Part shown: one piece after another, positions 4,391-52,607 of the stretch
Layout of the letters: every line of letters begins with the position of its first letter
How positions within the stretch are numbered: the stretch's first letter is position 1
Source: Streptomyces sp. SID14436
Lineage (GTDB): Bacteria > Actinomycetota > Actinomycetes > Streptomycetales > Streptomycetaceae
Length of the DNA stretch: 64,000 nt
Assembly (NCBI RefSeq): GCF_010548465.1
Contig: NZ_JAAGMD010000531.1
Span: 1 to 64,000, forward strand
Direction of reading: 5' to 3'
Translations under genes and position numbers: made by a program
Notes under the pieces: model-generated
What the model was told of the DNA's origin: nothing
Database searches by the model: none
Seen by the model: the letters and a program-made list of their open reading frames with translations, nothing else

Positions 4391-4431
4391 CCGCTCCTTT
4401 CCGATCGTCCGGTCGTTGGTCTGGTGGGCCG

Positions 4432-5914: not shown

Positions 5915-5932
5915 CGTGCCGCTGCCCTTCTG

Positions 5933-6037: not shown

Positions 6038-6088
6038 TACAGACGCCCTCGCGGATCACGCCGAGCTCGTACACCGGATCCGGAACGA

Positions 6089-7575: not shown

Positions 7576-7637
7576 GCTCGCTCTCCGTGACGCTGCCCTG
7601 GGCCCTTGATCCTCGGCTTCCTGTTACGGTACCAGCC

Positions 7638-7673
7638 AGTCCTTGGTGATACCGCTCGGTATCACCAAGGACT
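7638..7673. promoter_or_regulatory. Perfect inverted repeat, probable TetR operator
   Basis: Arms AGTCCTTGGTGATACCG (7638-7654) and its exact reverse complement (7657-7673) are separated by CT. It sits between the divergent tetR and amidase genes, 31 bases before the preferred amidase start. The inner GATACC/GGTATC core is the kind of short palindrome TetR dimers bind. Its length would allow two dimers. Confidence 0.8.
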
Positions 7674-7703
7674 CATCAGTATCGTCTTTGGGGAGTGATG
7701 GCC

Positions 7704-9155: not shown

Positions 9156-9293
9156 CCCCGGCCACGGGCCGTGGACAAGTTCGGGCGGGCAGCGGGTACT
9201 GCGCCCCTCCACGGCGGCGTGCTGAGCAGGCAGGACAGCCGCGGCGCCGGCCCTGCGATGACCGTACTTGCGCCCTCCGGCTGTGGAGTGAGC

Positions 9294-9740
9294 ATGACTC
9301 GACGGCGGTCTGACGCCGGAGCACGCGGGCGCAGGCTCTGGAGGATGCGGATAGGCGAGTCGTCCAGGCGCACGGGTGCGAGTCCGCGCTCACTGCGGTA
9401 CTACGAAAAGCAGGGCCTGCTGACCAGCTCACGCTCCGACTCGGGGCAGCGTCATTATTCCGATGCTGCGGTCCAGCGCGTGTCACTCATCCGGCAGTTG
9501 TTCGACGCGGGTATGTCCAGCAGGGTGATCGCGACGGTGCTGCCGTGTGTGGACGTCCCGGGTGACCTGGGCGTCGCCGAGGAGACGTTCACGGCGATGA
9601 TGCGCGAGCGTGACCGGATCGACGTCGACATCGCTCACCTGATCGAGACCAGGGATGCACTCGACGTGCTGATCCAGGCCAACAGCCGACACCGGGCGGA
9701 GCTGTCCACGACCCCGGAACCGGTCGAACTATCGGCCTGA
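9294..9740 (+). CDS. MerR-family transcriptional regulator
   Basis: A 148-residue protein. The start at 9294 has a GGAG site five bases upstream; the later ATG at 9345 has GGAGG touching it and is less likely. The HTH is MRIGESSRRTGASPRSLRYYEKQGLL, followed by the wing (DSGQRHYSDAAVQRV) and a C-terminal dimerisation coiled coil with ERDRIDVDIAHLIETRDAL. No cysteines for metal sensing are evident, so an organic effector is more likely. It lies 106 bases upstream of a quinone-oxidoreductase-like gene on the same strand. MerR regulators often control such enzymes, so this is its probable target. Confidence 0.88.
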   Translation: MTRRRSDAGARGRRLWRMRIGESSRRTGASPRSLRYYEKQGLLTSSRSDSGQRHYSDAAVQRVSLIRQLFDAGMSSRVIATVLPCVDVPGDLGVAEETFTAMMRERDRIDVDIAHLIETRDALDVLIQANSRHRAELSTTPEPVELSA

Positions 9741-9846
9741 TGCTGTGAGCTGCGTCTCAGCCGGTTGCCCCTCACGTCGATGTCAGCGGTGAGCATGGCG
9801 ACAACGCCCGGAATCACCGGGTCGGTCATACGGGAGGCGGCGGAAG

Positions 9847-10770
9847 ATGGGGCAGGCGTGGGGTTTCGGCAGGCATGGCGGGCCCGAGGTGCAGGAGTTC
9901 TTCGATCGTCCCGACCCGGTCCCCGGTCGCGGCGAGGTGCTGATCCAGGTCGACGTCGCCGGCGTCAATCCCCTCGACCACCTTCTGCGCTCGGGTCTGG
10001 TCGACGGGCTCGACGGCGGGCGTGCGTTTCCCCGCGTGCTGGGCATGGAGGCAGCCGGAACCGTTCTCCGCCTGGGCGAGGACGTCAACGGGCTCGAGGT
10101 GGGTGACGCGGTGTTCGGCTTCGCGCTCACCGGTGGCGGCACTTACGCCGAGACGACGGTGTTGTCCGCGTCGAACACCGCGCGCATCCCGGAGGGGCTG
10201 TCCGCGACCGTGGCGGCAACGCTGCCCGTGGCCGGGACGACCGCGGTGGACGTGCTCGACCAGTTGGGCCTCGCGGCCGGTGCCACGGTCCTGGTCAACG
10301 GAGTCGGGGGCGGGGTCGGCCTCGCCGTCGCCCGGCTGGCCATCGGGCGCGAGCTGCGTGTGATCGGCGCCGGGAGTACCGCCAAGCGCGAGCACGCCGA
10401 GGCCATTGGGGCGCGGTTCATCGACTACACCGCCGAGGACGTCGCCGCCGCGGCACGCCGGCTGGTTCCGGACGGTTTCGACGGGATCGTCGACCTGGCT
10501 GGAGGCACCGCGCTGCGGACGGTCGCTCCGCTGGCCCGGGATCCCCGCAGCGTCATCGCTGTGGGTGACATGTCCGTGCCCGATCTCGGTGGACGCTTCG
10601 TCGAGCGTCGCGTCGACCGCGAGAACCTGGAGCGGTCGGCTCGGTTGGCTCTTGACGGACTCCTCGCACCCGTGATCACCGCGGTCCATCCGCTCTCCGA
10701 CGCCCCGGCCGCCCTCGCCACCGTCGAGAGGGGTCACGCCTCGGGCAAGGTCGTCATCAAGGTGGCATGA
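9847..10770 (+). CDS. NADP-dependent quinone oxidoreductase-like protein (MDR superfamily)
   Basis: A 307-residue medium-chain dehydrogenase/reductase without catalytic zinc ligands. The N-terminal GroES-like domain contains PGRGEVLIQVDVAGVNPLDH. The Rossmann part has ATVLVNGVGGGVGLAVARLA (the AxxGxxG of the quinone-reductase branch) and a C-terminal ASGKVVIKVA, the usual end of this subfamily. It reduces quinones or activated double bonds with NAD(P)H in the cytoplasm. It follows the MerR gene on the same strand and may be induced by electrophiles through it. Confidence 0.88.
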   Translation: MGQAWGFGRHGGPEVQEFFDRPDPVPGRGEVLIQVDVAGVNPLDHLLRSGLVDGLDGGRAFPRVLGMEAAGTVLRLGEDVNGLEVGDAVFGFALTGGGTYAETTVLSASNTARIPEGLSATVAATLPVAGTTAVDVLDQLGLAAGATVLVNGVGGGVGLAVARLAIGRELRVIGAGSTAKREHAEAIGARFIDYTAEDVAAAARRLVPDGFDGIVDLAGGTALRTVAPLARDPRSVIAVGDMSVPDLGGRFVERRVDRENLERSARLALDGLLAPVITAVHPLSDAPAALATVERGHASGKVVIKVA

Positions 10771-11086
10771 GAAGGGCCCGGCCGTCCGACGCGTTCGACC
10801 GTCCACTCGGACTGACGCGAACCCGTGGTTCGCGCATCATCGAGTACCAGGTCGAGCACGGTCAGGTGTGTGCCGGACCGGGCACCTGGTGTGGGAGCTG
10901 ACTTGGCAGCAGGCCGCGTCGTCGTCCGCGACGACGACCAGCCGCGGCCGGAGGAACTCCGTGCCTGCACGCTCATGCGGCCACCGCAGAGAACGGAGAG
11001 AGCCGGAGAGAGCCGCCGGGTATCCCCCATCGTGCAGTGATCACTTGTCCCGGCGTCATGTACGGAGAGCGGCCTCGCCATCCTGG
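10771..11086. other. Gap without a recognisable gene
   Basis: About 316 bases between two convergent genes. Short frames here (for example around 10825-11040) lack convincing composition. No strong hairpin was identified. Nothing else to report. Confidence 0.35.
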
Positions 11087-11452
11087 TCAGGCGAGATCTG
11101 TCAGGTCCTCCGCGAACACCTGCGACAGAGGCTGCGGTCCCACATACTGCTGGCAGTTGCACTGACCAGCCTCGTAACGCAGCGGCTTCCTGTTCTCATC
11201 CCAGGCCACTGGCACCTCGACGCGCTCGTGGCACTGGCCCTGCTTGTCGTGTTTGGCGAGATGGTGCGTGCATCCGCACACCGGCTCCGGAGGCTTGTTC
11301 GCTGCTTCGACGGCCAAACGTTCCTGCCTCGCCGCCTCCAGCAACTGCAACTTGCGCTCATGCCGATTGCGCAGGGCGGTGCGCACGTTGTCAGCTGCCC
11401 ACGCGAAGCCACCCGTCCAGAAGAGGATGAGAACCCACCAGAACCAGTCCAT
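11087..11452 (-). CDS. Small membrane-anchored Cys/His-rich protein
   Basis: A 121-residue protein starting MDWFWWVLILFWTGGFAWAA, a single N-terminal membrane helix. A charged helical segment follows (RTALRNRHERKLQLLEAARQ), then a conserved-looking Cys/His block with CGCTHHLAKHD, QCHERV and QCNCQQYVGPQPL. Spacing of the Cx(1)C and HH pairs suggests a zinc-binding knuckle facing the cytoplasm. The fold and role are unknown. Similar CGC-HH...CNC-QY proteins are frequent in Streptomyces, to my knowledge without a defined function. It stands alone between gene-free stretches. Confidence 0.75.
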   Translation of the reverse strand: MDWFWWVLILFWTGGFAWAADNVRTALRNRHERKLQLLEAARQERLAVEAANKPPEPVCGCTHHLAKHDKQGQCHERVEVPVAWDENRKPLRYEAGQCNCQQYVGPQPLSQVFAEDLTDLA

Positions 11453-11782
11453 CCGCTACCCCTCCCCCTGTGGTGCTGCGGCCCAGCATAGATGGTGCAT
11501 CAGAAAGGCGTTCGCATTGTCATGTGGACCTCAGACACAGTGTTTCAGCCATCCTTCGGCGCCCAGGACTCCTGCGTGGCGGTGCACTTGACGGGCACTC
11601 TGTCCGCCGCAGAGCGTGGTGTTCACTCTGGTGCGCGGCGTGCTCCGACCTGGCGCGCGAGGACGCCCGGCCGAGTGAGTGTGTCGTTGTCCCTGCGACT
11701 GCGGTGCCGGACTACAAGCTGCCGGCCGGCCCGGTGGCCGGCCTGGCGTCGGCACACTGCCTCGTCTCCGCTGACCTGCCGC
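11453..11782. other. Gap without a recognisable gene
   Basis: About 330 bases between the Cys/His-rich protein and the alcohol dehydrogenase gene. No convincing frame, RNA gene or repeat is seen. The promoter of the 11087-11452 gene should lie at its left edge. Confidence 0.35.
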
Positions 11783-12943
11783 TCAGCCCATGCGGAGAAT
11801 CGGCTTGACCGCCCTGCCTGCCGCGGCGTCCGCCGCGGCCTCGTTGATCTGGTCGAAGTCGTAAAAGGTGACCAGACGATCGAAGGGGAAGCGGCCCTGC
11901 ATGTACAGGTCCAGGAGCTGCGGGACGAACACATCGGGAACGCTGTTGCCCTCCACCACGCCCATCAGCGTCTTGCAGCTCTGCATGAAGGCGTTCGCCG
12001 GCACACCGACCACGGCATCCTCCGCGGAGGCGCCGAGTACGGCTGCCGTTCCCCGCTGACGCAGGGCCTGGATCATCTGGCCGATCAGCGGGGGCAGACC
12101 TGTGGTGTCGAGGGCGTAGTCGACGCCCTCACCGGTGATGCGGCCGATCTCCTCCACGGCGTCCTGCTCGCGGCCGTTGACGGTGTGGGTGGCGCCGAGC
12201 TCGGCGGCGAGTTCGAGGCGCGCGGGCAGGACGTCGACGGCGATGATCGTGACTGCCCCGGCCACCCGTGCGGCCAACACCGCGCTGAGGCCGACCGCGC
12301 CGGCTCCCATCACCGCGAAGGTGGAGCCCACCCCGACGTTCAGCGCACGCAGAACCGTCCCGGCGCCGGTCTGGATGCCACAGCCGAGCGGGCCCAGGAG
12401 TTCCAGCGGGGCGTCGGGGCGCACCTTGACGGTGTTGCGTTCGTTGGTGACGGCGTGGGTGGCGAAGGACGACTGGCCGAAGAACCGGTCGTGGAGGATG
12501 CCGCCGCTGTCGCCGTCGGCGAGCCGCAGGGCGTGGGAGCCGTCCAGGCGCCGGCCTGCGAAGTTGACGGCGTTGAAGTTGGCGCAGCTCGCCGGTGATC
12601 CGTCGAAACACGGGCGGCAGCGGCCGCACGGCAGGAAGCTGACCGCAACGTGGTCCCCGGGCGCGACCTTCTCCACCGCCGCCCCCACGGCCTCCACGAC
12701 GCCCGCGCCCTCGTGCCCCAGAACGACGGGCAGCGGAACCGGATACACCTGGTCCCTCACCACCAGGTCGGTGTGACACAGGCCGGCGGCAACGATCCGC
12801 ACGACGACCTCGTCGTCGCGCGGAGGGCCGAGGAGGGCCGGGCCCAGCTCGAAGGAGCCCTTCTCCCGCACGACGGCGGCCGTGACCTCTCGTTCGGTTG
12901 GTTCGGTGGCCGGGATCTCGCGTTCGGCCGGCGCATCCGCCAT
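11783..12943 (-). CDS. Zinc-dependent alcohol dehydrogenase (aryl-alcohol dehydrogenase type)
   Basis: A 386-residue class-III-like MDR enzyme. The ATG at 12943 is seven bases from a GAGGAG site, so the start is firm. The catalytic zinc ligands are in GLCHTD and GHEGAG. The structural zinc lobe has four cysteines (PCGRCRPCFDGSPASC). The NAD-binding motif is GAGAVGLSAVLAARVAGA followed by VD, with the Asp that selects NAD over NADP. The length and the CGIQTGAG segment fit the benzyl/aryl-alcohol dehydrogenase branch, which oxidises aromatic or medium-chain alcohols to aldehydes. Its start overlaps the 3' region of an upstream gene remnant, so it probably belonged to a catabolic operon. Confidence 0.9.
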   Translation of the reverse strand: MADAPAEREIPATEPTEREVTAAVVREKGSFELGPALLGPPRDDEVVVRIVAAGLCHTDLVVRDQVYPVPLPVVLGHEGAGVVEAVGAAVEKVAPGDHVAVSFLPCGRCRPCFDGSPASCANFNAVNFAGRRLDGSHALRLADGDSGGILHDRFFGQSSFATHAVTNERNTVKVRPDAPLELLGPLGCGIQTGAGTVLRALNVGVGSTFAVMGAGAVGLSAVLAARVAGAVTIIAVDVLPARLELAAELGATHTVNGREQDAVEEIGRITGEGVDYALDTTGLPPLIGQMIQALRQRGTAAVLGASAEDAVVGVPANAFMQSCKTLMGVVEGNSVPDVFVPQLLDLYMQGRFPFDRLVTFYDFDQINEAAADAAAGRAVKPILRMG

Positions 12944-12954
12944 GGCTGGTCTCC

Positions 12955-13107
12955 TCACCGGTACTCGTGCAGCGCCCAGGTCACCATCTCGGCCTTGGGC
13001 AGGGTCACTTCCTCGTACCCGTACAGCCGGTCGTACTTCGGTTTCAGTGGGTTGGTGGCCTCACGAGAGACGCTGGCGAAGAAGTCGGACAAAAGCGGGG
13101 GGCCACA
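12955..13107 (-). pseudogene. Orphan C-terminal gene fragment upstream of the alcohol dehydrogenase
   Basis: A minus-strand reading ends at TGA 12955-12957, inside the ribosome-site region of the alcohol dehydrogenase gene. It contains PPLLSDFFASVSREATNPL, then KYDRLYGYEEVTLPKAEMVT and WALHEYR. Composition is clearly protein-like. About 50 codons upstream an in-frame stop appears and no start is present, so only the C-terminus survives. I do not recognise the family. The tight spacing to the dehydrogenase suggests the two were once co-transcribed, possibly with an enzyme that made its alcohol substrate. Confidence 0.45.
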
Positions 13108-13415
13108 GCTGGCCCCTCATGACGCAGGGACGGTCCAGAGCCGGATGCCGGCCGGCTCAGGGCCCACTCCCTCCAGTGGAACGCCGGGAGGTGGCCGCCG
13201 CAAGTGCCCGGGGAAACGGATCGTTCCGCACTCCGCACGACCCCGAGACTCGATGATCGTCTTCGGCTGAGCGTCACCGCAGCTCGGAGAGCCCCGCCCA
13301 GCCGCCTCGGGGTGCAGCCGCTCCGTGGCCTTTTCATCAGCTCGGGCATGGCCGGCCGACCGCTGCTGGAGGTGCAACACAGGCGAGATCCCGGCGACAG
13401 CCGCCCGGAGCTCCC

Positions 13416-18837: not shown

Positions 18838-20246
18838 GCGCCGCCGACGCCCCGGCGGCCGGCCCGGACGGCGAGAGGGTCCAGACGCTGCTGGTCCTGG
18901 GCGCGCGGGGCGACCTGACCGAGCGGCTGCTCCTGCCCGGCTTGGGCGACCTCGTCGCCGCATCCGGGCTGACCGGTCTCTTCCTCGTCGGCAGCGACCG
19001 GGGCTCGGGCAGCGACGAGGAGTGGCGGACGCTCGTCGCCCGGGCGTTCGCCGCCGGCAGGGCGAACGGGCCGGCCGTCGACGCCGTCGTCCGCAACTCC
19101 CGATACCTGGCAGCGGACGCCACGGCCGAGGAGGATCTGCGCCGCCTGCTGGCCTCCTGCCGTGGCCGTCTCACGCTGTACTTCGCGCTGCCTCCGGCGA
19201 TCACCGTCGAAGCGTGCCGGGCGCTGGCCCGGATCGGGGTGCCCGAGGGGACTCGGCTGGTGCTGGAGAAGCCGTTCGGCACTGACGCGGCCAGTGCCGC
19301 CGCGCTCAACGAGCTGCTGCACGGCTTCGTGCCCGAGGACCATGTGCACCGTGTCGACCACTTTCTCGGTATGTCGACGGTGCTGAACATTCTGGGCGTC
19401 CGGTTCGCCAACCGGGTCATCGAGCCGCTGCTCACCTCGGAGCATGTCGAGGCGGTCGACATCGTGTTCGACGAGACGCTCGGTCTGGAGGGGCGGGCGG
19501 GGTTCTACGACACGACGGGCGCACTGCGCGACATGATCCAGAGCCATCTGCTGCAGGTGCTGTCGCTGGTGGCGATGCCCGCGCCGAGCACGCTCCAGCC
19601 GCTCGACGTGCGGGACGCCAAGGCGCAGGTCCTGCGCGCCACCCACGTCTGGGACGACCGTCCCGAGCAGTTCAGCCGGCGTGCCCGTTACACCGCCGGA
19701 ACGGTCGACGGCCGCTCGCTGCCCGCGTACGCCGACGAGCCGGGCATCGACCCTGCCCGGCAGACCGAGACCCTCGCCGAGGTCGTGTTCGCGGTCGACA
19801 CCTGGCAGTGGGCCGGTGTGCCGTTCCGTGTCCGCTCGGGCAAGGCGATCGGCTCGCCCCTGCAGGACGTCACCTACTGGTTCAAGGATCCCCAGCACGT
19901 GCCGGACGGGCTCGTCGGCGATGTCGCCAACAACCGGCTGCGTCTCGGCATCGGCCACCACAGCCTGCGGCTCGACCTCAACGTCAACGGTCCGGGCGAT
20001 CCGTCCACCATCTCTCCCGTCACCCTCGACACCACGTTCGGCCCGGGTGATCTGCTCGAGTACGGGGAGGTCCTCCGCGGCGTGCTGGAGGACGAGAAGC
20101 CCCTGTCGGTGCGCGACGACATGTCGGTCGAGTCGTGGCGCATCGTCGAGCCGGTGCTGGACGCCTGGCGCGACGGGCGTGTCCCCCTCGACCACTACCC
20201 GGCCGGCAGTGCCGGACCCGAGGCATGGGCCGGGCGAACGGCTTGA
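18834..20246 (+). CDS. zwf: Glucose-6-phosphate 1-dehydrogenase
   Basis: A 470-residue NADP-dependent enzyme that oxidises glucose 6-phosphate to 6-phosphogluconolactone, the entry to the oxidative pentose phosphate pathway. Motifs: the NADP-binding GARGDLTERLLLPGL (family GASGDL), VLEKPFGTD, and the active-site block HRVDHFLGMSTVLNI (usual R-x-DHYLGK; here Phe replaces Tyr and Met-Ser follows where Lys is common). RSGKAIG and the GDLLEYGEVLRGVLEDE region complete the C-terminal domain. The ATG at 18834 overlaps the stop of the SMP-30 remnant. It converges with gntK. The missing Lys after HFLG deserves checking because that residue contacts substrate in characterised enzymes. Confidence 0.88.
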   Translation: MSAADAPAAGPDGERVQTLLVLGARGDLTERLLLPGLGDLVAASGLTGLFLVGSDRGSGSDEEWRTLVARAFAAGRANGPAVDAVVRNSRYLAADATAEEDLRRLLASCRGRLTLYFALPPAITVEACRALARIGVPEGTRLVLEKPFGTDAASAAALNELLHGFVPEDHVHRVDHFLGMSTVLNILGVRFANRVIEPLLTSEHVEAVDIVFDETLGLEGRAGFYDTTGALRDMIQSHLLQVLSLVAMPAPSTLQPLDVRDAKAQVLRATHVWDDRPEQFSRRARYTAGTVDGRSLPAYADEPGIDPARQTETLAEVVFAVDTWQWAGVPFRVRSGKAIGSPLQDVTYWFKDPQHVPDGLVGDVANNRLRLGIGHHSLRLDLNVNGPGDPSTISPVTLDTTFGPGDLLEYGEVLRGVLEDEKPLSVRDDMSVESWRIVEPVLDAWRDGRVPLDHYPAGSAGPEAWAGRTA

Positions 20247-20354
20247 GTGAACACTGAGTACCACTCGGATTCTCGTCCGGCGGCGGAGGGAGTTGGTCCA
20301 ACTCAGGCGTGAGGTGATCGGCGGCAGGTCTTCGGGAGCCGGCGTCCAGGAACT

Positions 20355-20426
20355 GCTCCGGGCACGGCTCCGGGAGCGACTCCGGGAACGGCTCCGGGAA
20401 GCGCTCCGGGAGCGACTCCGGAGAAG
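20355..20426. repeat. 12-nt tandem repeat, six copies
   Basis: Six imperfect head-to-tail copies of a 12-mer near GCTCCGGGAGCG fill the space between convergent zwf and gntK. Each copy contains a CTCCGGGAG near-palindrome, so the transcript of either strand could fold into serial small hairpins, possibly ending transcription. Confidence 0.7.
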
Positions 20427-20432
20427 GGCCCC

Positions 20433-20957
20433 CTACCGGGCGACGGAAGGCCCCTCCAGCTCGCGCAACGCCTCCACGACCCGGTCGGTGGTCTCCTCCG
20501 GCGCACCGGACACGTCCACCGTCACTCCGGCTTCGTCCGGCTCCAACGGCTGTAGGGCGGCGAGTTGGGAGGCGAGGAGCTTCGTGGGCATGAAATGCCC
20601 CTGGCGGCGCGTCAGCCGCGACTCGATGAGCGCGCGGTCGGCCGTCAGGTGCACGAACACGATGCCGGGGGCCGTGGCCCGCACACGGTCACGGTAGGCC
20701 CTGCGGAGCGCCGACCCGCTGATCACTCCGCCGACCCCCGTGCGATCACGCGCCCACGCGCCGATAGCGTCCAGCCAGGGTTCGCGGTCCTCATCGGTGA
20801 GCGGGCTACCGGAGGCCATCTTCTCGATATTGGCCCGCGAGTGGAAGTCGTCGCCCTCGGCGTACGGGACACCGAACCGATCCGCGAGCAGGCCACCGAT
20901 CGTGGTCTTGCCGGTCCCGGCCACCCCCATCACGACCACGACCCGGGTGCCGGTCAT
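20433..20957 (-). CDS. gntK: Gluconokinase
   Basis: A 174-residue kinase of the GntK/IdnK type that phosphorylates gluconate to 6-phosphogluconate with ATP. The P-loop is VVVMGVAGTGKTTIGG. Other family motifs are EGDDFHSRANIEKMASGSPL, DEDREPWLDAIGAW and SGSALRRAYRDRVR, followed by RRQGHFMPTKLLASQLAALQ. The length is normal. It is convergent with zwf, so the two genes together feed 6-phosphogluconate from either glucose 6-phosphate or free gluconate. It has its own promoter region to the right (20958-21157). Confidence 0.93.
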   Translation of the reverse strand: MTGTRVVVVMGVAGTGKTTIGGLLADRFGVPYAEGDDFHSRANIEKMASGSPLTDEDREPWLDAIGAWARDRTGVGGVISGSALRRAYRDRVRATAPGIVFVHLTADRALIESRLTRRQGHFMPTKLLASQLAALQPLEPDEAGVTVDVSGAPEETTDRVVEALRELEGPSVAR

Positions 20958-21157
20958 GTGTCCCTCCTGCCCAGGCAGGGGATGGGTGCGGGAGCCGGCG
21001 AGGACGACGGAACGGACATTCCTCGATCGTCGCAGGAAAACGGAACGCAGGCAGCCTCAGCCCGCTGACGCGGCACGCACCCAGCACCGTCAATTGCGCG
21101 CACACCTGCTGCTCTCGCCCTCGCCGGCGCACTCTTGCCGACGAGCGCGCCGCTGCC

Positions 21158-21436
21158 GTGCGCGCCGCGACGCTCGATGCGCTGTCGGGTCCGTGGAACG
21201 TGCCGGTGCGCTTCATAGGCCGGTACCGCAGTGCTGCTTGGGGAGTGTGTGCCGGCCTGTGCTTCCTCACGAACACGGTGCTGCGTCAGAGCGGGACCGT
21301 GGACTCCTTCAGTCTGTGGGGCTTCCTGTGGGCTCTGCCGGTGCTGGTCGTCGACCGGCGGTTCGCGGCCGTCCGCAGGCAGGCCGAGGCACGGTACGTC
21401 GCGGGCCTCGAGGCCAGGCTCGCCGCCGAGCAGTGA
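21158..21436 (+). CDS. Small predicted membrane protein
   Basis: A 92-residue protein from GTG 21158. Two hydrophobic segments, roughly residues 26-42 (AAWGVCAGLCFLTNTVL) and 51-65 (SLWGFLWALPVLVVDRR), suggest a hairpin in the membrane. A charged helical tail rich in Ala/Arg/Glu follows (AEARYVAGLEARLAAEQ). The frame stays open upstream without a better start, so the N-terminus is uncertain. No family is recognised. Confidence 0.55.
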   Translation: MRAATLDALSGPWNVPVRFIGRYRSAAWGVCAGLCFLTNTVLRQSGTVDSFSLWGFLWALPVLVVDRRFAAVRRQAEARYVAGLEARLAAEQ

Positions 21437-21651
21437 TCCGGGCGGGGTACGGATCCCGGTCTGCGGTGACTGTCGATACGCCCGCCCGTTGGCGGGGGGC
21501 GCAGGTGCCGTTCGGGCGGGTCCGCTCGGTCCGGTCGGGGTGTACACGCCGCCCGGCTTCGCCGGGGGGTACGTGCCTGCCGCTCGGTGCCGCGCATGCT
21601 CGTCCCGCCCGCGCTGAAAAGGTCGGCGGTCCCGAGCGGTGGTGGGGTTCC

Positions 21652-22044
21652 TCAGGCCTGTCTGCTGCTCATGTCGGCACGTCCGCGGCGGGTTGCGAGC
21701 GATCTGCGCGCAGTCCATTCGGCCAGGGGTTGCAGGGCCTCGATCAGGTCTTTCCCCGCGGGCGAGAGACTGTAGGTGATCTGGACGGGCGTGCTCGGCA
21801 CCACTGTCCGTTCCATCAGTCCCTGGCTTTCGAGTTCCTTGAGGCGTTGGGAGAGCAGGCGGTCGGAGATGCCGTCGATCAGTGCCCGGTACTCGCCGAA
21901 GCGTCGGGCGCCCTGGACGGCGGCCACCAGGATGGAGCCCGTCCAGCGGCGGCCCACCACCTCAAGGGTGTCCTGCAAACGGGGGCAGCTGTCGTCGTCG
22001 ATCGAACCGCGTTCGAGGTGCCGTGGCACGTCATCACCCCTCAT
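21652..22044 (-). CDS. HxlR-family transcriptional regulator
   Basis: A 130-residue winged-helix protein starting MRGDDVPRHLERGSIDDDSC. HxlR features: a Cys near the N-terminus (DDDSCPRLQDTLEVVGRRWT), IDGISDRLLSQRLKELESQG as the recognition helix, and ITYSLSPAGKDLIEALQPLAEW at the C-terminus. The Cys may act as a redox or electrophile switch, as in related HxlR/YodB proteins. Upstream bases 22047-22066 hold TACCTA...GTAGCTTA elements also found in front of the second HxlR gene (57896). The target gene is not obvious; the plus-strand DUF389 gene follows across a 300-base gap. Confidence 0.88.
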   Translation of the reverse strand: MRGDDVPRHLERGSIDDDSCPRLQDTLEVVGRRWTGSILVAAVQGARRFGEYRALIDGISDRLLSQRLKELESQGLMERTVVPSTPVQITYSLSPAGKDLIEALQPLAEWTARRSLATRRGRADMSSRQA

Positions 22045-22342
22045 ACACTTACCTATGGTGAGTAGCTTATGCCATGTTCCGGGTGCAGCCGGTGCACGGC
22101 TGCACCGGCTGCTGCCGCACATTCGCCATGACAGCAGGGCGTGGGACGGTCGCCTCAGACCGCAGCACGGGGCGACCCGCGGGACGGGTGCTGGAGCGCC
22201 CGGGCTCAGGGCGGAGGGTCGATCGGCGGGAGCTGCAGATGCCCACCCTCGCGACGAACGGGCCGTCGCGGAGGAAAGGGGCGGCAGCGGTGGGCCCGTG
22301 TCTCGCGCGCCGGGAACGTGCTGATCGCGGTTGTTCGGAGAG

Positions 22343-25630: not shown

Positions 25631-26320
25631 TCAGATTGCGGGGCGCCGCCTGGCGCCACCGCCGTGTCCGTTCAGCGGGATCAGGGTCTCCAGATGAGCG
25701 CCTTTGACCCAGGCGCCCAGCAGGTCGCGGTGCAGGGCCACGATGTCCTGGCGCACGGCCAGCCCCAGCGCGGCCTTCGTGAACGTGCGGCAGGTGGTGA
25801 CGAACAGGGCGACGTCGGCGCCGTGTTCGGGGCGGGCGGTGCCGACGAACTTCTGCATGTCCTGCGAGGACACACTCCGGTGCGGCGCGTACTTCTTGCA
25901 CTGCACGACCAGTTTGCGGCCGTCGGCCAGGTAGCCGACCACATCTGCCCCCAGGTCGCCACTCTTGCCGCTGACTTCGACTTTCGTGCAGCCGTCCCGT
26001 CGGCACAGATCGGCGACGTACGCCTCGAAGTCCTGCCACGACAAGGCGTCGACCTCGGCCATCGACAACTCCCGCGCCCGGGCCTCCTCCTGCGCCCGCC
26101 ACGCGCGGTCCTCGCCGACGGCGTTACGGTGCGCCTGCAGCAGCTTCCATCCGGCCCCGCCCAACACGGCTGCGGCGAGCACCGAGACCAGGACGGGCCA
26201 CACCACCGACCAGTTCCGGACCGCCCACACCACGGCTGCCGCCGCCATCAGGGCCGCCACGCCCTGTAGCCGTCTGCGCGTGCGCTTCTTCAGGCGCCGG
26301 TGCCATCGACGTGCTGCCAT
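25631..26320 (-). CDS. Membrane-anchored restriction endonuclease (Mrr/PD-(D/E)xK type)
   Basis: A 229-residue protein starting MAARRWHRRLKKRTRRRLQG. Two hydrophobic helices follow (VAALMAAAAVVWAVRNW and VLVSVLAAAVLGGAGWKLL), then a charged linker and the nuclease domain. The domain has WQDFEAYVADLCRRDGCTKV, then GDLGADVVGYLADGRKLVVQ with CKKYA (the D...Q-x-K catalytic set of Mrr). It probably cleaves modified or foreign DNA at the membrane, where entering DNA arrives; this location is an inference from the two helices. No methyltransferase gene is adjacent, which fits a type IV (modification-dependent) enzyme. Confidence 0.85.
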   Translation of the reverse strand: MAARRWHRRLKKRTRRRLQGVAALMAAAAVVWAVRNWSVVWPVLVSVLAAAVLGGAGWKLLQAHRNAVGEDRAWRAQEEARARELSMAEVDALSWQDFEAYVADLCRRDGCTKVEVSGKSGDLGADVVGYLADGRKLVVQCKKYAPHRSVSSQDMQKFVGTARPEHGADVALFVTTCRTFTKAALGLAVRQDIVALHRDLLGAWVKGAHLETLIPLNGHGGGARRRPAI

Positions 26321-26596
26321 CGCTCCCCCAGTCCCCCGTCTGTTCCCGGTCCCGTCATGTGCGCGCGGCCGGCCTGTGCGGTCCAGCCGGAGCATCCTGT
26401 GTAGCCGGGCGTCGGCGATCTTGGAGGCGGATTGCCGACGAACGGCATAAATCCGTCGGACCTGGCTGAATAGCGCGGGACCCGGTGGTCAACGGGCACG
26501 ATGTCGCCCGCTTCGGGACCGGCCCAGCGCCTGCTCGTCGAGAGGGCCGACGCGGTTGCGGCATGATCAGGGCCAGCCGACTTTCCGGGGGCTGAC

Positions 26597-29419: not shown

Positions 29420-29977
29420 CTACAGCTCGAACTCCACGTGCTCGATGTCGGTGAACCGGACCTCCTCCAGGCTGCCCGCGCGGCGGCCTCCGTCCTGGAA
29501 GTAGACCTCCTTGAGTGCTTCGGCCGCGATCTCCCGCAGCCGGGCGTCGTCCGCGCCGGCCTCCTGGGCGTCGAAGAGGCGGGCGGCGTAGACGGGGGGC
29601 AGGGCGACGGTCAGGTGCCGGATGCGGTCCTGGTCCGTCGAGCCGATCGGGGCGGTGTAGCCGAGGCGGGCGCGGGTGTCGATGACGATGCCTCCCGTGC
29701 TCGCCGCCTGTTCCTTGGCGCGCGCCCGGATCCGTGGCTGCCACCGCTTGGTCACCTCACGCTCCAGGCGTGCGGCCAGGTCCGGACGGGGCTTTCTGAT
29801 CTGGTTCCTGACGTAGCGTTCGACCGTGCGCTGGGAGACGCGCAGCAGTTGGGCGACCGCGCGGGTGCCTTTCATCTGCCGGACCAGGTACCGCATTTGG
29901 GCGGGTGCGCTCTTGGGTGCCGGGCGGGTGAAGGACTTGTGCACCGCGGCGTCCAAGCCGTCCCCGAACAGGCTCAT
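29420..29977 (-). CDS. tpg: Telomere terminal protein Tpg
   Basis: A 185-residue protein that caps and primes replication of the 5' ends of linear Streptomyces replicons. The sequence follows known Tpg closely: MSLFGDGLDAAVHKSFTRPA, an HTH (AVAQLLRVSQRTVERYVRNQ), GGIVIDTRARLGYTAPIGST, RIRHLTVALPPVYAARLFDA and the C-terminal EEVRFTDIEHVEFEL. Thr114 (in PIGSTDQD) is at the position reported as the deoxynucleotidylated priming residue of S. lividans/S. coelicolor Tpg. A GGAGAGG site precedes the ATG. It lies 14 bases after tap and is therefore co-transcribed. Its presence indicates a linear chromosome or plasmid. Confidence 0.95.
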   Translation of the reverse strand: MSLFGDGLDAAVHKSFTRPAPKSAPAQMRYLVRQMKGTRAVAQLLRVSQRTVERYVRNQIRKPRPDLAARLEREVTKRWQPRIRARAKEQAASTGGIVIDTRARLGYTAPIGSTDQDRIRHLTVALPPVYAARLFDAQEAGADDARLREIAAEALKEVYFQDGGRRAGSLEEVRFTDIEHVEFEL

Positions 29978-29991
29978 CTCGGCCGCCTCTC

Positions 29992-32214
29992 CTACTCTCC
30001 GTCGTCGACGCCGGTGACGGTGCCGTCCTTGATGTAGCGGGCGAGGTTGAGTTCCGGAGCGTCGAAGCGCTCACGGACCTCTTCGCCCCACAGGACGCTC
30101 TGGGTTCCCTCGTGCTTGACGAGGCCGGGATTGACGCCCAGCTTGAAACCGCCGGGGAGCGGCTTGCCGTCCCGGTAGGGCAGGACGTCCAGCGGGCTGG
30201 TGCCGTCGGCCGCGTAGACGACGCAGTCGGACAGGACGGCCACCGGGTACTGGCCGGTGAACGCCGCATGCCGGACCATCTTGCGGTGCAGGTTGATCCG
30301 GGTGCGGGAGATGACCGCCGCCCGGATGTCCGGCCGCCACGTCGGACGGGACAGCGCCCGCCACGGCTCGCCAGGCCGCCAGCCCTCACCGCGCGGGCGC
30401 TCACGCAGCTTGCCCAGGCCGCCCTTGACCGTCGCCTTGACCGCCGACACGACGATCGCCAGTTCCGGGTCACGCTCCGCCCAGCCGTCCATCGCCGCGA
30501 GGAAGTCGGCCGGGGCCATGTCCGCGTGGACGCCGAGGTCGGCCATCGTGGCGAGGTACGCGTCGCGCAGCCGCTGGTACCAGCCGTCCAGGTAACGGCC
30601 GTTGTCGTGGCGGACGTACGCCTCCAGCGGGCGGACCTCGTAGCCGAGCTCCTGGGCGTAGGCGACGGTGGGTGTGGCGTACCAGGCGGGGCCGGTCGGC
30701 CGCTCGCCCTTCGGCGTGAACGGGGAGGGCAGCAGGTCGCCGTCCAGCTCCACCCACTCCTTGCCGGCCTTGACGCGGGACAGGTCGACGTGGGACAGGT
30801 CGACCAGCCACGAGCCGGGCAGCTTCGGGTCGAACACCGGGGACTTGACGTGCGTGGGCGCACCCAGACCGACGTTCAGGCCGTTGGCGCCCGCGGCGAA
30901 GGCCAGGTTGACGTCGATGCCGACCAGGTGGCGCAGGGTGCACTCCGCGTCCGTCATGGGCCGCGCCCAGTCGTACGCCTCCTCGAACAGCTTCTCGCCG
31001 GGGCCTCGGACGTGGAAACGCGGCAGATCCTTCAGCAGCGGATGCCCGTCCGGGGCCTCGCACGGTGCGCAGTCCACCGGGTCGCTGCCCAGGCTGCCCG
31101 GGTTGCGCTCGGAATGCCGGCGGCCGTCCGCGTCCGGCTGGGAGGCGCGGGTCGGGGGGTGCAGCACGGTCATCAGCTCCAGGCCGGTCACGGCGGTCGA
31201 ACCGCACGGTGTCATCACCCTCGACGCGTACACGCCCAGAACCCGGGCCAGCTCCGCCGGAGGCAGATCGGCGGCGGCGCCCCAGTGCCGGGGGTCCAGC
31301 GCGTTCCACGACGGGATGCACAACTGCACGCAGGACCGCTCCCCGCCCTGCGCGGGACGGTAGATCCGGGCCCACGGCCCGAAGCCGCGCTTGGTGAGCT
31401 TCCAGCCGGCACGCGTCAGCTGCTTGACGACTTTGTGGCCCTCCGCGATCCGCCCTGCCAGCCGCTCGCCGTCCGACAGTGCGGCGGGCAGGCCGTAGCG
31501 CTCCAGCGCGGCGCCGGTGAGGACGAGCAGCGGATCGGCGTCCCTGCCCGGCCCCGACAGCCTCGGCTGCCCCAGCTTCGCCTCGCGCAGGGTCCACTCG
31601 ACCAGGGCCGGGATGCTCTTGGCAGGCACCTCCAGCATCAGACCGCCGGTGCAGTACGCCAGCACGTGGCCCTCGGCGTCCACATCCACGACGGCGAGTG
31701 GCCCGTTGGCGAAGCGCGACTCGGGTGCGTCCGGTGCGCCGGCTGAGGCTGCCTTCCTCGCGGCTGGGCGGGCGGACACCGGAGAGGGGGCGGAGGTGCG
31801 GGCCGGCTTCGGGATGGGGCCCGGGGCGGGGGCGGGGGCCGGGGCGGGGGTCCCGGGGACGTGCGTAGGTGGTGGGGTGGCCGGTGTCGCCGGTGTCGCC
31901 GGTTCGTTCGGATGGGGCGGGGTCGTGGCCGCAGGTGCCGCTGCGTCCTCTGTCGGCACGGCCACGGCAGCGGGCGGTGGATAGAGTTCCGCGAGCTGTT
32001 GGAGGAGCCGGGCGTAGGCATCGCGTTCCGGCGGTCGCGGCTCGGTCTTGCCCGCCTCCCACCCGCTGACGGTGGCACGGCGTACCTTCAGTGCCGTGGC
32101 GACCTCTTCGACCGTCAGACCGTGGGCCTTGCGCAGACGCCTGCGCTCGTCCGGCGGCGGCAGCGGAGCGCGGGACGCGACCAGCGCGTCGATCGCATCG
32201 AACAACTCGGACAC
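29992..32214 (-). CDS. tap: Telomere-associated protein Tap
   Basis: A 740-residue protein that binds folded 3' overhangs of Streptomyces telomeres and recruits Tpg. GTG 32214 is preferred over GTG 32220, because AGGAG is six bases from the former and touches the latter. The N-terminus is an XRE-like HTH (RRRLRKAHGLTVEEVATALK then RATVSGWEAGKTEPRPPERD). A Pro/Ala-rich linker of about 80 residues follows, then the conserved Tap body (ALAVVDVDAEGHVLAYCTGG-like start, WARIYRPAQGGERSCVQLCI, PVAVLSDCVVYAADG). A possible -10 TACAGT lies at 32233-32238 on the minus strand, with a GATACGTACGATC near-palindrome just upstream. It forms an operon with tpg. Confidence 0.95.
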   Translation of the reverse strand: MSELFDAIDALVASRAPLPPPDERRRLRKAHGLTVEEVATALKVRRATVSGWEAGKTEPRPPERDAYARLLQQLAELYPPPAAVAVPTEDAAAPAATTPPHPNEPATPATPATPPPTHVPGTPAPAPAPAPGPIPKPARTSAPSPVSARPAARKAASAGAPDAPESRFANGPLAVVDVDAEGHVLAYCTGGLMLEVPAKSIPALVEWTLREAKLGQPRLSGPGRDADPLLVLTGAALERYGLPAALSDGERLAGRIAEGHKVVKQLTRAGWKLTKRGFGPWARIYRPAQGGERSCVQLCIPSWNALDPRHWGAAADLPPAELARVLGVYASRVMTPCGSTAVTGLELMTVLHPPTRASQPDADGRRHSERNPGSLGSDPVDCAPCEAPDGHPLLKDLPRFHVRGPGEKLFEEAYDWARPMTDAECTLRHLVGIDVNLAFAAGANGLNVGLGAPTHVKSPVFDPKLPGSWLVDLSHVDLSRVKAGKEWVELDGDLLPSPFTPKGERPTGPAWYATPTVAYAQELGYEVRPLEAYVRHDNGRYLDGWYQRLRDAYLATMADLGVHADMAPADFLAAMDGWAERDPELAIVVSAVKATVKGGLGKLRERPRGEGWRPGEPWRALSRPTWRPDIRAAVISRTRINLHRKMVRHAAFTGQYPVAVLSDCVVYAADGTSPLDVLPYRDGKPLPGGFKLGVNPGLVKHEGTQSVLWGEEVRERFDAPELNLARYIKDGTVTGVDDGE

Positions 32215-32450
32215 GGACACCTCCTGGCCGCCACTGTAGACCAGGGATCGTACGTATCACGCACTTTGGGCGCACCCTCCGCGTACATGGTCTGCGTCAT
32301 CCGGGGACGCTGACCTCGTCCACAACCCACCTCGTACGGACCTCCGTCGTACCGCGCGGGAAGCTGCTCCTGTTGCTGCTTCTCAGTGTTGCGGTCGAGC
32401 GGCGGCGGTCCGTGAAGCGTCGGCGGGGCGGCACAATAGGTCCGCGGGTC

Positions 32451-48213: not shown

Positions 48214-48441
48214 ACACGGCAGGCCACCAGCCGGCCGGCAGCCACGCCCCGAGGACGGCGACACGGTCGGACGCGCCCGGCGGGGATGCCCGTCCGTCAG
48301 CGGCGCGGTCCTTCCCCCGTGGCGGGTGAGGCACGGAGCCCGTCGTTCGGGTGCCGTGGGAGGAAGCGGTGGTGTGCGGGCCGGGCCGGTGACCGGCCGC
48401 GGGGCGTACTGCTGCGACACGGCGAGTTCGAGGTGGACGGC

Positions 48442-50106
48442 GTGAAGCACTGGCGGGCACTGATCGTCCTCGGCACGGCCCAGTTCCTGATGGTCCTGGA
48501 CACCTCCGTCATGAACGTGTCCATCAGTCAGCTGGTCGACGACTTCGACACCGAGGTCACCGCCATCCAGGCCGTCATCACCCTGTACGCGCTGGTCATG
48601 GCCAGTTTCATGCTCATCGGGGGCAGGTTCGGGGACATCCTGGGGCGGCGGCGCGTGTTCCTGCTCGGACTGGTCGTCTACGGCGTCGGATCGGCCCTGA
48701 CCGCCGTGGCGCCCTCCTTGTGGGTGCTCACCCTGGGCTGGTCGGTGATCGAGGGGCTGGGGGCGGCGATGGTGCTGCCGGCCATGGCGGCACTGGTCGC
48801 GGAGGCGTACCGCGGCCGGGACCGGGCCGTCGCGTACGCGGTCATCGGCGGGCTCGCCGGGGCCGGGATAGCGGTGGGCCCGTTGCTGGGCGGCTGGGTG
48901 ACGACGTACCTGACCTGGCGGTTGGTCTTCGCCGGGGAGGTCGTCGTCGTGGTGGCGGTGCTGCTGTGCCGCCGGGTGATCGCGACGCCCGCCGCGACGG
49001 GCGCACGGCCGCGGCTGGACGGCGTGGGGGCGGTCCTGTCCGCCGTCGGGCTGGGGCTGGGCGTGCTCGGGGTGCTGCAGAGCAGCACCTGGGGGTGGGT
49101 GCAGCCGCGCAATCCGCCGTTCACCGTCCTGGGCTTCGCTCCGACCCTGTTCGTCGTCGGTGCCGGCGCGGTCGTGCTGGCCGTCTTCCGGTCCTGGGAG
49201 CGGCGGCGGGAGGGCGGAGGTGTCGACCCGCTGGTGCACCTGTCGCTGCTGGGCCGGCCCGTGCTGCGGTCCGGTCTGATGGCGCTGCTCAGCCAGAATC
49301 TCATTCTGCTGGGTCTGTTCTTCACGATCCCGCTGTATCTGCAGGCGGTACAGGGCTTCGACGCGTTCGAGACCGGGCTGCGTCTGCTGCCGGTGTCCGT
49401 GACCATGTTCGTGACGTCCCTGTCGGCCTCCTCGCTGGGGCGCACCCTGGGGCCGCGGCGGGTGGTGCGGCTGGCTCTGCTGATCCTGGCGGCGGCCATC
49501 GTGTGGCTGCTGGCGACCATCGACCCGGTCATCGACGACGCCCAGTTCGCCGGGGCCATGGCGGTGCTGGGCGTGGGGATCGGTCTGCTCGCCTCCCAGC
49601 TCGGCAACGTCATCCAGTCCGCCGTCGGGGAGGAGGAGCGCAGTGAGGCCGGAGGGCTGCAGTTCACGGCCCAGAATCTGGGGTCCGCGCTGGGCACCGC
49701 CCTCATCGGTTCGATCCTCATCGGCGCGCTGGCCCATGCCGCCACCACGCAGGTGACGGACGACCCCAGGCTGTCCGAGGCCACCAGGGACGAGGTCGGT
49801 GTCGCGCTCCAGGCGGGCATCAGTTTCGTCCCCACCGATCAGGTGCGGTCGGCAGCGGAGCGGGCCGGCCTTCCCCCGTCCGAGGTCGACGCGCTGGCGG
49901 ACTCCTACGCCGCCGCGCAGCTGGACGGTCTGAAGGCAGCCGTCCTGGCCACCGGCGGCATCGCCCTCGCCAGTTTCCTGGTCACCCACCACCTGCCCAC
50001 CGCCCCCCGAAGCAGCCGCCGACGACAGCCGGCCGAGTCGGCGACGGCGGGAGCGGACGGGGCAGCCGGGTCGGCCGGCACGGACGCCGGCGGATCCGCA
50101 CGTTGA
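48442..50106 (+). CDS. MFS drug-exporter-type transporter (DHA2, 14 helices)
   Basis: A 554-residue transporter. GTG 48442 has GAGGTGG upstream and begins MKHWRALIVLGTAQFLMVLD; frame upstream of it is not protein-like. Landmarks: DTSVMNVSISQLVDDFDTEV (motif D1 region), GGRFGDILGRRRVFLLGLVV (motif A, G-x-x-x-D-x-x-G-R-R) and AGIAVGPLLGGWVTTYLTWR (motif C, antiporter). About 14 helices, plus a late soluble segment (AATTQVTDDPRLSEATRDEV) typical of DHA2 members. The C-terminus is low-complexity. It probably exports a hydrophobic drug or metabolite by proton antiport. A small membrane protein gene follows 27 bases later. Confidence 0.9.
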   Translation: MKHWRALIVLGTAQFLMVLDTSVMNVSISQLVDDFDTEVTAIQAVITLYALVMASFMLIGGRFGDILGRRRVFLLGLVVYGVGSALTAVAPSLWVLTLGWSVIEGLGAAMVLPAMAALVAEAYRGRDRAVAYAVIGGLAGAGIAVGPLLGGWVTTYLTWRLVFAGEVVVVVAVLLCRRVIATPAATGARPRLDGVGAVLSAVGLGLGVLGVLQSSTWGWVQPRNPPFTVLGFAPTLFVVGAGAVVLAVFRSWERRREGGGVDPLVHLSLLGRPVLRSGLMALLSQNLILLGLFFTIPLYLQAVQGFDAFETGLRLLPVSVTMFVTSLSASSLGRTLGPRRVVRLALLILAAAIVWLLATIDPVIDDAQFAGAMAVLGVGIGLLASQLGNVIQSAVGEEERSEAGGLQFTAQNLGSALGTALIGSILIGALAHAATTQVTDDPRLSEATRDEVGVALQAGISFVPTDQVRSAAERAGLPPSEVDALADSYAAAQLDGLKAAVLATGGIALASFLVTHHLPTAPRSSRRRQPAESATAGADGAAGSAGTDAGGSAR

Positions 50107-50133
50107 GCAGGCAGGAGCCGGAGGGAGTCAACC

Positions 50134-50667
50134 GTGGTCAGGACCAGGGCGACGACCGGCTCGGGGGCGAGCCGCGGGGCGAGCCGTGCGGAGCAGCGGG
50201 CCCGGGCGGACTACACGGGCGGTGTCTACGGCTCCATGCTCGCGGCGTCCGTGGTGATCGGCGCGGGTTCCCTGGGCGACTTCCCCCGCGTCGAACTGGT
50301 GCTGCTGCTGTTGCTCACCGGGGTGGCGTTCTGGGTCGCGCACGTCCACGCCCATCTGTTCGGCGCGCGCCTGGCGCAACAGGCCCTGGACCGCCGGGTC
50401 GTGCTGCGCGTCTGCCGGGACGAGTGGCCGATCGTCAAGGCCACCGTCCCGCCGGCCGCCGCGGTGGCCGTCAGCCCGCTGCTGGGGCTGGACGTGCGGG
50501 GCGCCCTCTGGCTGGCGGTGTGCGTCGCCGTGGCCGGTCAGGTGGGCTGGTCGGTGGCGGCGGCGCGGCGGGCGGGTGCCTCACCTCGGCTCATGGCCGC
50601 CACGGCGTCGATCAACCTGCTGCTCGGCCTGCTCATCATCTCGTTCAAGATCTTCCTGAAGCACTGA
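50134..50667 (+). CDS. Hypothetical membrane protein downstream of the exporter
   Basis: A 177-residue protein with a short basic N-terminus and four hydrophobic helices (GGVYGSMLAASVVIGAGSLG, VELVLLLLLTGVAFWVAHVH, VSPLLGLDVRGALWLAVCVA, SINLLLGLLIISFKIFLKH). The helix 2 segment carries a conspicuous HVHAH cluster (FWVAHVHAHLFGARL) that could bind metal or protonate. It starts 27 bases after the exporter stop, so it is likely in the same operon. The family is not recognised. Confidence 0.7.
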   Translation: MVRTRATTGSGASRGASRAEQRARADYTGGVYGSMLAASVVIGAGSLGDFPRVELVLLLLLTGVAFWVAHVHAHLFGARLAQQALDRRVVLRVCRDEWPIVKATVPPAAAVAVSPLLGLDVRGALWLAVCVAVAGQVGWSVAAARRAGASPRLMAATASINLLLGLLIISFKIFLKH

Positions 50668-50823
50668 CGGCCGGCCTCCCCCGGCCGGGCGCCGGCCCCT
50701 CCCCCGCCGGTCACCTGTGCCGGGTGAGGCCCGGCCGAGCGGCCGGGCGGACCATCGCAGGTGGACGCCACAGGTGACGAGGCCGTCCACCGGTTTCGCG
50801 GCCGTCCGCGGAAGGGCAGTTGC

Positions 50824-51102
50824 GTGCGCTACGAGATACGGGTCGAGGGACACCTGTCGGAGCCGCTGGCCCGGGCCTTCCCGGAGCTGGGCCACGTGGT
50901 GATGGCCGGCCAGACCGTGCTGTTCGGCCCCGTGGAGGACGCGGCGCACCTGTACGGGCTGCTCGCGCGCTGTCAGTCACTGGGACTCCGGGTCGTGGAG
51001 ATACGCCAACTGCCGGAGGGACACGGGCCGGGCGGTCCTTGGACGCCCTGCCCGTGTCCCTCACCCGTGGTGGGTGAGCCGGTCGCGCGACGGGGGGCGT
51101 GA
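50824..51102 (+). CDS. Small hypothetical protein
   Basis: A 92-residue protein from GTG 50824, with GGAAGGG eight bases upstream. The sequence reads RYEIRVEGHLSEPLARAFPE, then GHVVMAGQTVLFGPVEDAAH and LYGLLARCQSLGLRVVEIRQ, a beta-alpha-beta pattern like small ferredoxin-like folds often found in Streptomyces secondary-metabolite and stress regions. A Pro/Gly-rich tail follows. The function is unknown. It precedes the membrane-stress gene group. Confidence 0.65.
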   Translation: MRYEIRVEGHLSEPLARAFPELGHVVMAGQTVLFGPVEDAAHLYGLLARCQSLGLRVVEIRQLPEGHGPGGPWTPCPCPSPVVGEPVARRGA

Positions 51103-51222
51103 CGCTGGAGCCGTCGGGAGCGATCGGGAGCGGTCGGGTGCTTCCCCCGCCGGCGTCGTCGTCCGCTCGGGATCCGCGCGTGGGCGACGGCGCCGGGCGG
51201 GGGTTCGACGCGAGGAGGAATC

Positions 51223-51891
51223 ATGACCGTGCCGCGTGGGGGCCGCCAGGCTCCGCCCTCCGGGCCGGGAGCGGGATCCGGCGGGACGGCCCCGGGTGCG
51301 GTGCCGGGCGACTCCGCCTACCTGCTCGCGCGGGTGGGCCGTTCCTGGACCTGGCTCATGGGGTCCGCCGTCACCACGCTCGTGCCCGGCCTGCTCGTGC
51401 TGGTCTGGCCGGAGGCGACCCTGCACGTCCTGGCGGTGCTCGTCGGCCTCTACCTGCTGGTCACCGGGTCGTTCCGGTTCGTGGCCGTCTTCGCACGGGA
51501 GGGCCACGAACGCCTGCCGGGGCTGCTCCTGGCCGTGCTGTACGTCCTGGCCGGCGTGCTGTGCCTGCGGAACCCGTTGCAGACGATCGCCGCGCTCTCG
51601 TTGATCGTCGGGGTCGTGTGGCTCGTGTCGGGCCTGCTCACCCTGTACACGGCGATCGCCGCCGAGGAACTGCCGCACCGGGGCGTCGTGGCGGTCGTCG
51701 CCGTGCTCGGCATCGTCGCGGGGATCGTGGTGCTCGCCCTGCCGGCCGAGTCGGCCCGGGCCCTGACCCGGCTGCTCGGCCTCCTCGGTCTGGCCGAGGC
51801 GGCGGTCGCCCTCGCCTGGCGGGCCGCCCTCCACAGGGCCGTGCCCTCGATGCCCTCCTCGTCCTCCTCCCCCAGCGCTCCGGCAGCCTGA
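51223..51891 (+). CDS. HdeD family (DUF308) membrane protein
   Basis: A 222-residue protein with six predicted helices in three pairs, the HdeD layout: WTWLMGSAVTTLVPGLLVLV, TLHVLAVLVGLYLLVTGSFR, LPGLLLAVLYVLAGVLCLRN, PLQTIAALSLIVGVVWLVSG and VAVVAVLGIVAGIVVLALPA. A Gly/Pro-rich N-terminal tail of about 30 residues precedes them. A GAGGAGG site lies before the ATG. E. coli HdeD is linked to acid resistance at high cell density; actinomycete paralogues are uncharacterised. It is the first of a run of membrane proteins up to the lipid kinase. Confidence 0.82.
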   Translation: MTVPRGGRQAPPSGPGAGSGGTAPGAVPGDSAYLLARVGRSWTWLMGSAVTTLVPGLLVLVWPEATLHVLAVLVGLYLLVTGSFRFVAVFAREGHERLPGLLLAVLYVLAGVLCLRNPLQTIAALSLIVGVVWLVSGLLTLYTAIAAEELPHRGVVAVVAVLGIVAGIVVLALPAESARALTRLLGLLGLAEAAVALAWRAALHRAVPSMPSSSSSPSAPAA

Positions 51892-52090
51892 CGCAGGGGT
51901 GCCGGGGGCGGGGACCTTTGCGCTGCCGTCACCGCACCACCGCACGGCGGGTTGGGACCGCCGGCCGTCTTGCCGCCCCGGCCCCGCGGCCTCACCCGCC
52001 CCGGGTGAGGCCACCCGGCACCTGCCGTGCCCACGCTGAGGACAGCACGCGGAGGGCGCCCGGGCGGACGCCCCTGGACGGAGGAGAGAG

Positions 52091-52558: not shown

Positions 52559-52607
52559 CCATCAGGCCCCACGGAACACATCCGCCGCACAGAAATCGAG
52601 GCGCACG

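Follow-up and report, generated by a model that had tools for sequence, protein, structure and literature searches.

The closest described system is the Tap–Tpg pair of Streptomyces lividans and S. coelicolor. For S. lividans Tpg, the passages cited here from PMC3572947 place the joining of the first nucleotide at Thr114 and report that changes at A42, V52, R54, Y55, T114 or D115 abolish function. Those from PMC4513846 report that Tap binds Tpg and structures of the 3′ overhang, and that Tap and Tpg alone suffice for the first 13 nt made on Tpg. In addition, parts of PMC8743545 and PMC8743542 describe, for S. clavuligerus and S. rochei, replicons that depend on the tap-tpg of another replicon; according to the former, S. 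clavuligerus cured of pSCL4 carries end deletions in five of five clones, with proven circles in two.

The tap-tpg operon of the window

The window is the whole 64,000-nucleotide stretch of Streptomyces sp. SID14436 analyzed here and lies on an 84,760-bp contig, C476 (C marks contigs of this strain, G compared genomes). Its tap-tpg region contains the following features.

29420–29977, minus strand: tpg, archetypal terminal protein, 185 aa (NCBIfam NF047541 and translation)
29636–29638, minus strand: Thr114 codon, deoxynucleotidylation site by homology with S. lividans Tpg (PMC3572947, cited passage)
29978–29991, minus strand: tap-tpg intergenic gap, 14 nt, with ribosome-site-like GGAGAGG; operon arrangement
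29992–32220, minus strand: tap, telomere-associated protein, 742 aa, GTG start, N-terminal helix-turn-helix at residues 27–74 (NCBIfam NF047542; Pfam HTH_3, HTH_31)

The window contains an intact archetypal Tap–Tpg pair, and in this the original prediction, of an intact Tpg with Thr114 inside PIGSTDQD and an intact Tap upstream, was right. Tpg gives a full-length match to the telomere_Tpg model NF047541 (residues 4–185; 290 bits, cut-off 90), and Tap, encoded directly upstream of tpg on the same strand, covers the whole Telomere_Tap model NF047542 (1116 bits, cut-off 600), which puts both genes above the NCBI equivalog cut-offs. The translation places the start of PIGSTDQD at residue 110, so that its Thr is residue 114. 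Specifically, window Tpg keeps A42, V52, R54, Y55, T114 and D115, the residues essential in S. lividans Tpg, and likewise R18, A26 and the N-terminal start, while the S. lividans tryptic fragment that bears the priming site, L105–R118, occupies the same positions. Compared through the NCBIfam models and published residues, the window pair shares gene order, Tpg size, helix-turn-helix residues, Thr114, Asp115 and operon layout with the S. lividans and S. coelicolor pairs, and differs from them in sequence divergence only.

The pairwise dN/dS of tpg against six homologues is 0.16–0.27, as for a gene under selection. A same-strand Tap lies upstream within 4 kb in 77 of 80 fetched tpg loci. Thr114 is present in 80/80 of these loci, which is not independent evidence of conservation, since they are the best 80 of 262 by similarity and PIGSTDQD was among the search words. 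No Tpg matches were found in phage records. The operon is thus an ordinary Streptomyces tap-tpg operon, textbook in itself.

No departure from the S. lividans scheme is seen in the window genes. The genes, their layout, the key residues and the family are read directly from the window, and the chemistry would be that known from S. lividans, by analogy. In that scheme, one operon would yield both Tap and Tpg; outward replication forks would leave a 3′ overhang at the ends; Tap would bind the folded telomere and add the first nucleotides to Thr114 of Tpg; and Tpg would prime end patching and then stay covalently attached. We infer that the C476 replicon is linear, that its ends are archetypal and that the window pair serves them, most likely including a nearby one to the left, toward low coordinates; the pair may also act in trans on further replicons. 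The best explanation of the locus, and a likely one, is a functional archetypal tap-tpg operon that sits on a Streptomyces arm and patches the archetypal ends of its own replicon.

The replicon served by the operon

The original prediction took the operon to mean that the replicon is linear. This step does not follow: service in trans is published, the strain's own draft yields no archetypal telomere, and another contig with tap-tpg, C158, closes as a circle. Since a linear chromosome can depend on the tap-tpg of a plasmid, possession of these genes does not by itself identify the replicon they act on.

Neither end of C476 shows a telomere. In composition, C476 lies inside the range of presumed chromosomal contigs and looks chromosomal, whereas C158 lies mostly outside that range. 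Specifically, the whole-contig tetranucleotide distance is 0.10 for C476, 0.09–0.17 for 11 of the strain's contigs taken as chromosomal by presumption, and 0.18 for C158; cut into 10-kb pieces, they show overlapping ranges (0.14–0.18, 0.11–0.19 and 0.17–0.22, respectively).

C158 is 99,086 bp long and begins and ends with an identical, directly oriented stretch of 588 bases, giving a circle of 98,498 bp. A direct end overlap is the usual mark of a circle, whereas a linear replicon would show inverted ends. We therefore read C158 as a circle from the 588-bp overlap, although an assembly error may explain the overlap instead. C158 carries a second intact archetypal tap-tpg, whose Tpg (84%) retains every one of the eight sites checked, as well as two further systems.

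C158 10777–12831: divergent tap
C158 14034–14561: tpg-like frame with Ser at the priming position, accompanying the divergent tap
C158 16349–18550 and 18550–19272: adjacent Tac/Tpc-like pair (E 2e-71 and 1e-16 in single comparisons)

The Tac/Tpc-like pair is 31% and 29% identical to the candidates of pSCO2, whose genes were assigned by size, order and a statement in the cited part of PMC8743542 rather than by label, and which were compared with six of the strain's contigs. Any likeness to the Tac–Tpc system (SCP1-type, pSCO2) belongs to this C158 pair and not to the window pair: tblastn of the pSCO2 pair against C476 gave no significant match (best E 0.71), and the window pair is not Tac/Tpc. 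The claim that tac/tpc and other non-archetypal systems are absent thus stands for the window pair but not for the genome, which has the Tac/Tpc-like pair of C158 and a non-archetypal telomere-like end on C602. The pSCO2 record (NC_021986.1) is labelled circular in PLSDB and has one end rich in hairpins; in the cited part of PMC8743542 it is treated as a linear plasmid with SCP1-type telomeres. C158 also has TniB-like and integrase-like genes and a gene for a NACHT protein of 1741 aa, and its longest hairpin in our hairpin scan is a single one at C158:65332, with a 37-bp perfect stem.

Of the two intact archetypal tap-tpg operons present in the strain, that of C158 may be what the chromosome relies on. 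The window operon might be intact and yet not cap its own replicon, being a second copy (from a linear plasmid, for example) that duplicates the function of the C158 copy or acts in trans on other replicons. The occurrence of two such operons, the cross-replicon dependence described for S. clavuligerus and S. rochei (cited parts of PMC8743545 and PMC8743542) and the lack of any telomere seen on C476 speak for such a second copy, but the composition of C476 fits the presumed chromosomal contigs, tpg usually lies near ends, and the left side of C476 looks peripheral; we regard this reading as unlikely. We propose only tentatively, as a doubtful possibility, that C158 is a circular plasmid of about 98.5 kb that has no archetypal telomere and whose three end-patching pairs supply, in trans, linear replicons of at least two telomere classes, the window operon being the chromosomal copy.

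That the C476 replicon is circular or has non-archetypal ends, with the window tap-tpg a relic, is highly improbable. The tap-tpg carried by the self-closing C158 and the non-archetypal telomere-like end of C602 in the same strain would fit it, but the dN/dS of 0.16–0.27 and the intact residues argue against it. Furthermore, all 14 plasmids that match tap or tpg and whose topology was looked up are labelled linear, although such labels can err, as for pSCO2.

Telomeres and telomere-like ends

The ends of related replicons bear on our favored reading, that the window operon patches archetypal ends of its own replicon. We counted as positive those ends that scored 36–161 bits with a covariance model built from archetypal ends, whose alignment includes G252, G116, G068, SAP1, pSV2, pFRL1 and NBC_00690. 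Archetypal ends are present on the linear plasmids SAP1, pSV2, pFRL1 and NBC_00690, all four read with a Tpg at least 80% identical to that of the window, and in G252, G116, G068 (the most divergent), G033, G025 and G017 (Tpg at least 78% identical), with telomere and Tpg on different contigs in the last three. Wherever a record with a Tpg at least 78% identical reached a recognizable telomere, that telomere was archetypal. Among five held-out genomes, the model found an end in three (G026, G032 and G002) and none in G016 and G006 (Tpg 82–83% identical). No recognizable telomere was found at many tested record ends, including those of G221, G005, G249, G117, G009, G013 and G040; the Tpg of G221, G005 and G249 is likewise at least 78% identical to that of the window.

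The tpg regions of SAP1, pSV2 and pFRL1 are close relatives of the window locus: their Tpg is 84–88% identical to that of the window and their ends are archetypal, whereas C476 looks chromosomal in composition and has no end seen. Over 19768–22124, SAP1 (NC_004719.1) is 86% identical at the DNA level to window tpg and the greater part of tap, contrary to the cited part of PMC8743542, which lists SAP1 as without Tap and Tpg.

In the strain's own draft, two patterns and the covariance model detected no archetypal telomere; such an absence says little for an assembly of 908 contigs, from which the ends may be missing. Several candidates were rejected. The Palindrome I pattern had nine matches, of which those less than 300 bases from a contig end (C13, C193 and C702) resemble coding or repeat sequence by eye; the pal II–III pattern had two, each with two mismatches and put down to chance; and a covariance-model match at C158:44375 (22 bits) is coding sequence by eye, at a place that the hairpin scan did not rank. 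A second weak model match lies at C602:75512 (16.9 bits, E 0.89).

The left end of C602 (90,616 bp) is non-archetypal and telomere-like. The contig starts, at base 4, with four hairpins in 140 nt, three of which have 4-nt loops (loops in C602:1–160: TGGC, TGGC, TGCC and TAC). The stem count there is 31, against at most 17 in 1500 random 160-nt windows of the strain's contigs, and on the minus strand the folding of bases 1–220 is 4.07 sd better than that of shuffled sequences. The right end of C602 shows neither a hairpin cluster nor an inverted copy of the left end. At 75% identity, a stretch of the left end matches bases 207–320 of a single plasmid record, NZ_CP120993.1 (linear, S. laculatispora). 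All but about 15 kb of that plasmid was examined, and it encodes a Tac/Tpc-like pair sharing 70% and 79% identity with the C158 pair, together with a distant Tap/Tpg pair (32% each); judged from these sequences, either the Tac/Tpc-like or the distant Tap/Tpg-type pair could serve C602-type ends. Behind the hairpin cluster, C602 has a helicase-like ORF at 7829–10084 followed by an SbcC-like ORF at 10161–13169, both recognized by eye only.

The strain's genome has six Tpg-like matches, four of which exceed the family cut-off. C770 has a solitary tpg-like gene (46%) at 5719–6231, in which the priming position is occupied by Ser; in the relatives G005, G007, G014, G017, G020 and G032 a comparable isolated gene is found within a few kb of tap-tpg. 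The pairs on C158 and the telomere-like end of C602 thus indicate that other end systems are present in the strain. A strain with several terminal-protein systems and a non-archetypal telomere-like end is a natural test of which system pairs with which telomere.

Direction of tpg and the side of the telomere

The window operon reads leftward. Across plasmid records, tpg points to the nearest record end in 69 of 92 (binomial p 1.7e-6; this and the p-values below are too small, because the records are related). The 92 come from 40 + 60 rows less six repeats and two half-length matches, out of 394 records with a match, and count SAP1 as two accessions. The bias is carried by copies within 25 kb of an end (45/53 toward), with 24/39 farther in (p 0.2), and is weak where Tpg is 60–80% identical (11/17). 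For chromosomes, the sample was 40 of 52 single-contig genomes with a match, from which we dropped mid-record tpg (G142, G007 and G161), short or truncated matches, those below 45% and second copies in inverted repeats; 12 genomes were entered with a rounded length, and none of these has tpg near mid-record. Toward the nearest record end point 32 of the 39 kept copies, or 33 of 43 (p 0.0006) when four are re-added, namely the lone 46% copies of G116, G189 and G256 (away) and the frameshifted copy of G013 (toward). The neighboring genes, called with a simple gene caller, show no such bias (110 of 229 toward the nearest end in 20 chromosomal loci). The median distance of tpg to the record end is 19 kb for the 92 plasmid records and 118 kb for the 39 chromosomal copies.

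The direction can also be read against detected telomeres, in the 14 records that combine a model match of at least 36 bits at an end with a Tpg homologue on the same record, seven of them (G252, G116, G068, SAP1, pSV2, pFRL1 and NBC_00690) in the model's training alignment. The telomere is faced by tpg in 12 of 14, and in nine of nine where Tpg is at least 80% identical to that of the window. Pointing toward it are those of G252, G116, G068, G115, G217, G129, SAP1, pSV2, pFRL1, NBC_00690, G032:C269 and G002:C24; pointing away are those of G175 and G189, the latter with only its right end tested. A statement on tap-tpg direction, which may exist in print, was not found in the available parts of PMC8743542 and PMC7205883 or in search listings. 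Outward tpg transcription offers a cheap guess of the telomere side in draft genomes, complementing ttrA, which is transcribed inward according to the cited part of PMC8743542.

Two regions of C476 bear on the side of the telomere.

1–10000: left end of C476, predicted telomere side; GC 0.685, the highest tetranucleotide distance of the eight full 10-kb windows, and three ORFs in the first 6 kb without a Pfam match
48286–54595, plus strand: six-gene block (MFS, diacylglycerol-kinase-like and others), present in whole or part in relatives and in two S. anulatus plasmids

From 0.685 over the first 10 kb, GC climbs to 0.727 at 50–70 kb and is 0.713 at 70–80 kb; the right end is also somewhat deviant in composition. 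The direction of the tpg operon, which weighs more than gene decay, and the composition of the left 10 kb make a leftward telomere probable, and we expect, with good but not full confidence, that one lies to the left of the window, as the original prediction proposed; the 48–54 kb block argues for the right. In G013 and G040, both single-contig and with most of the block, the block is oppositely oriented with respect to the record end nearest to it, by which the telomere would lie to the right of the window. An operon that is archetypal, with its telomere on the right, is a variant of our main reading that we consider improbable: the tpg direction statistics stand against it, and the shared block is only about 6 kb long, has unlike flanks and also occurs on plasmids.

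Synteny of C476 with G013, G040, G026, G033, G017 and G024 amounts to this block of about 6 kb between unlike flanks; matches beyond it are single genes at 36–44% identity, two in G026 and one in G013. The record of G027, which has part of the block, starts at a DnaA-like gene, so its coordinates are uninformative on the distance to an end. Because the block occurs on plasmids too, C476 may be plasmid or chromosome. A tRNA-Ser(gct) called by ARAGORN at 52494–52569 was rejected as a chromosomal anchor: the 76-nt call overlaps a conserved ORF, is absent from the blocks of six relatives and is probably spurious.

The original prediction also described the genes at 1–29 kb as decayed. This holds in part only: decay is plausible mainly in the first ~6 kb, where the three ORFs tested had no Pfam matches, and recognizable genes at 7–28.5 kb encode TetR, amidase, dehydrogenase, reductase, G6PD, Band 7, Mrr and alpha/beta-hydrolase proteins. 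The Mrr-type restriction endonuclease domain protein is encoded at 25631–26395 of the window, and two of the 80 fetched loci have a close relative of it (93% and 78%) in the vicinity of tap-tpg.
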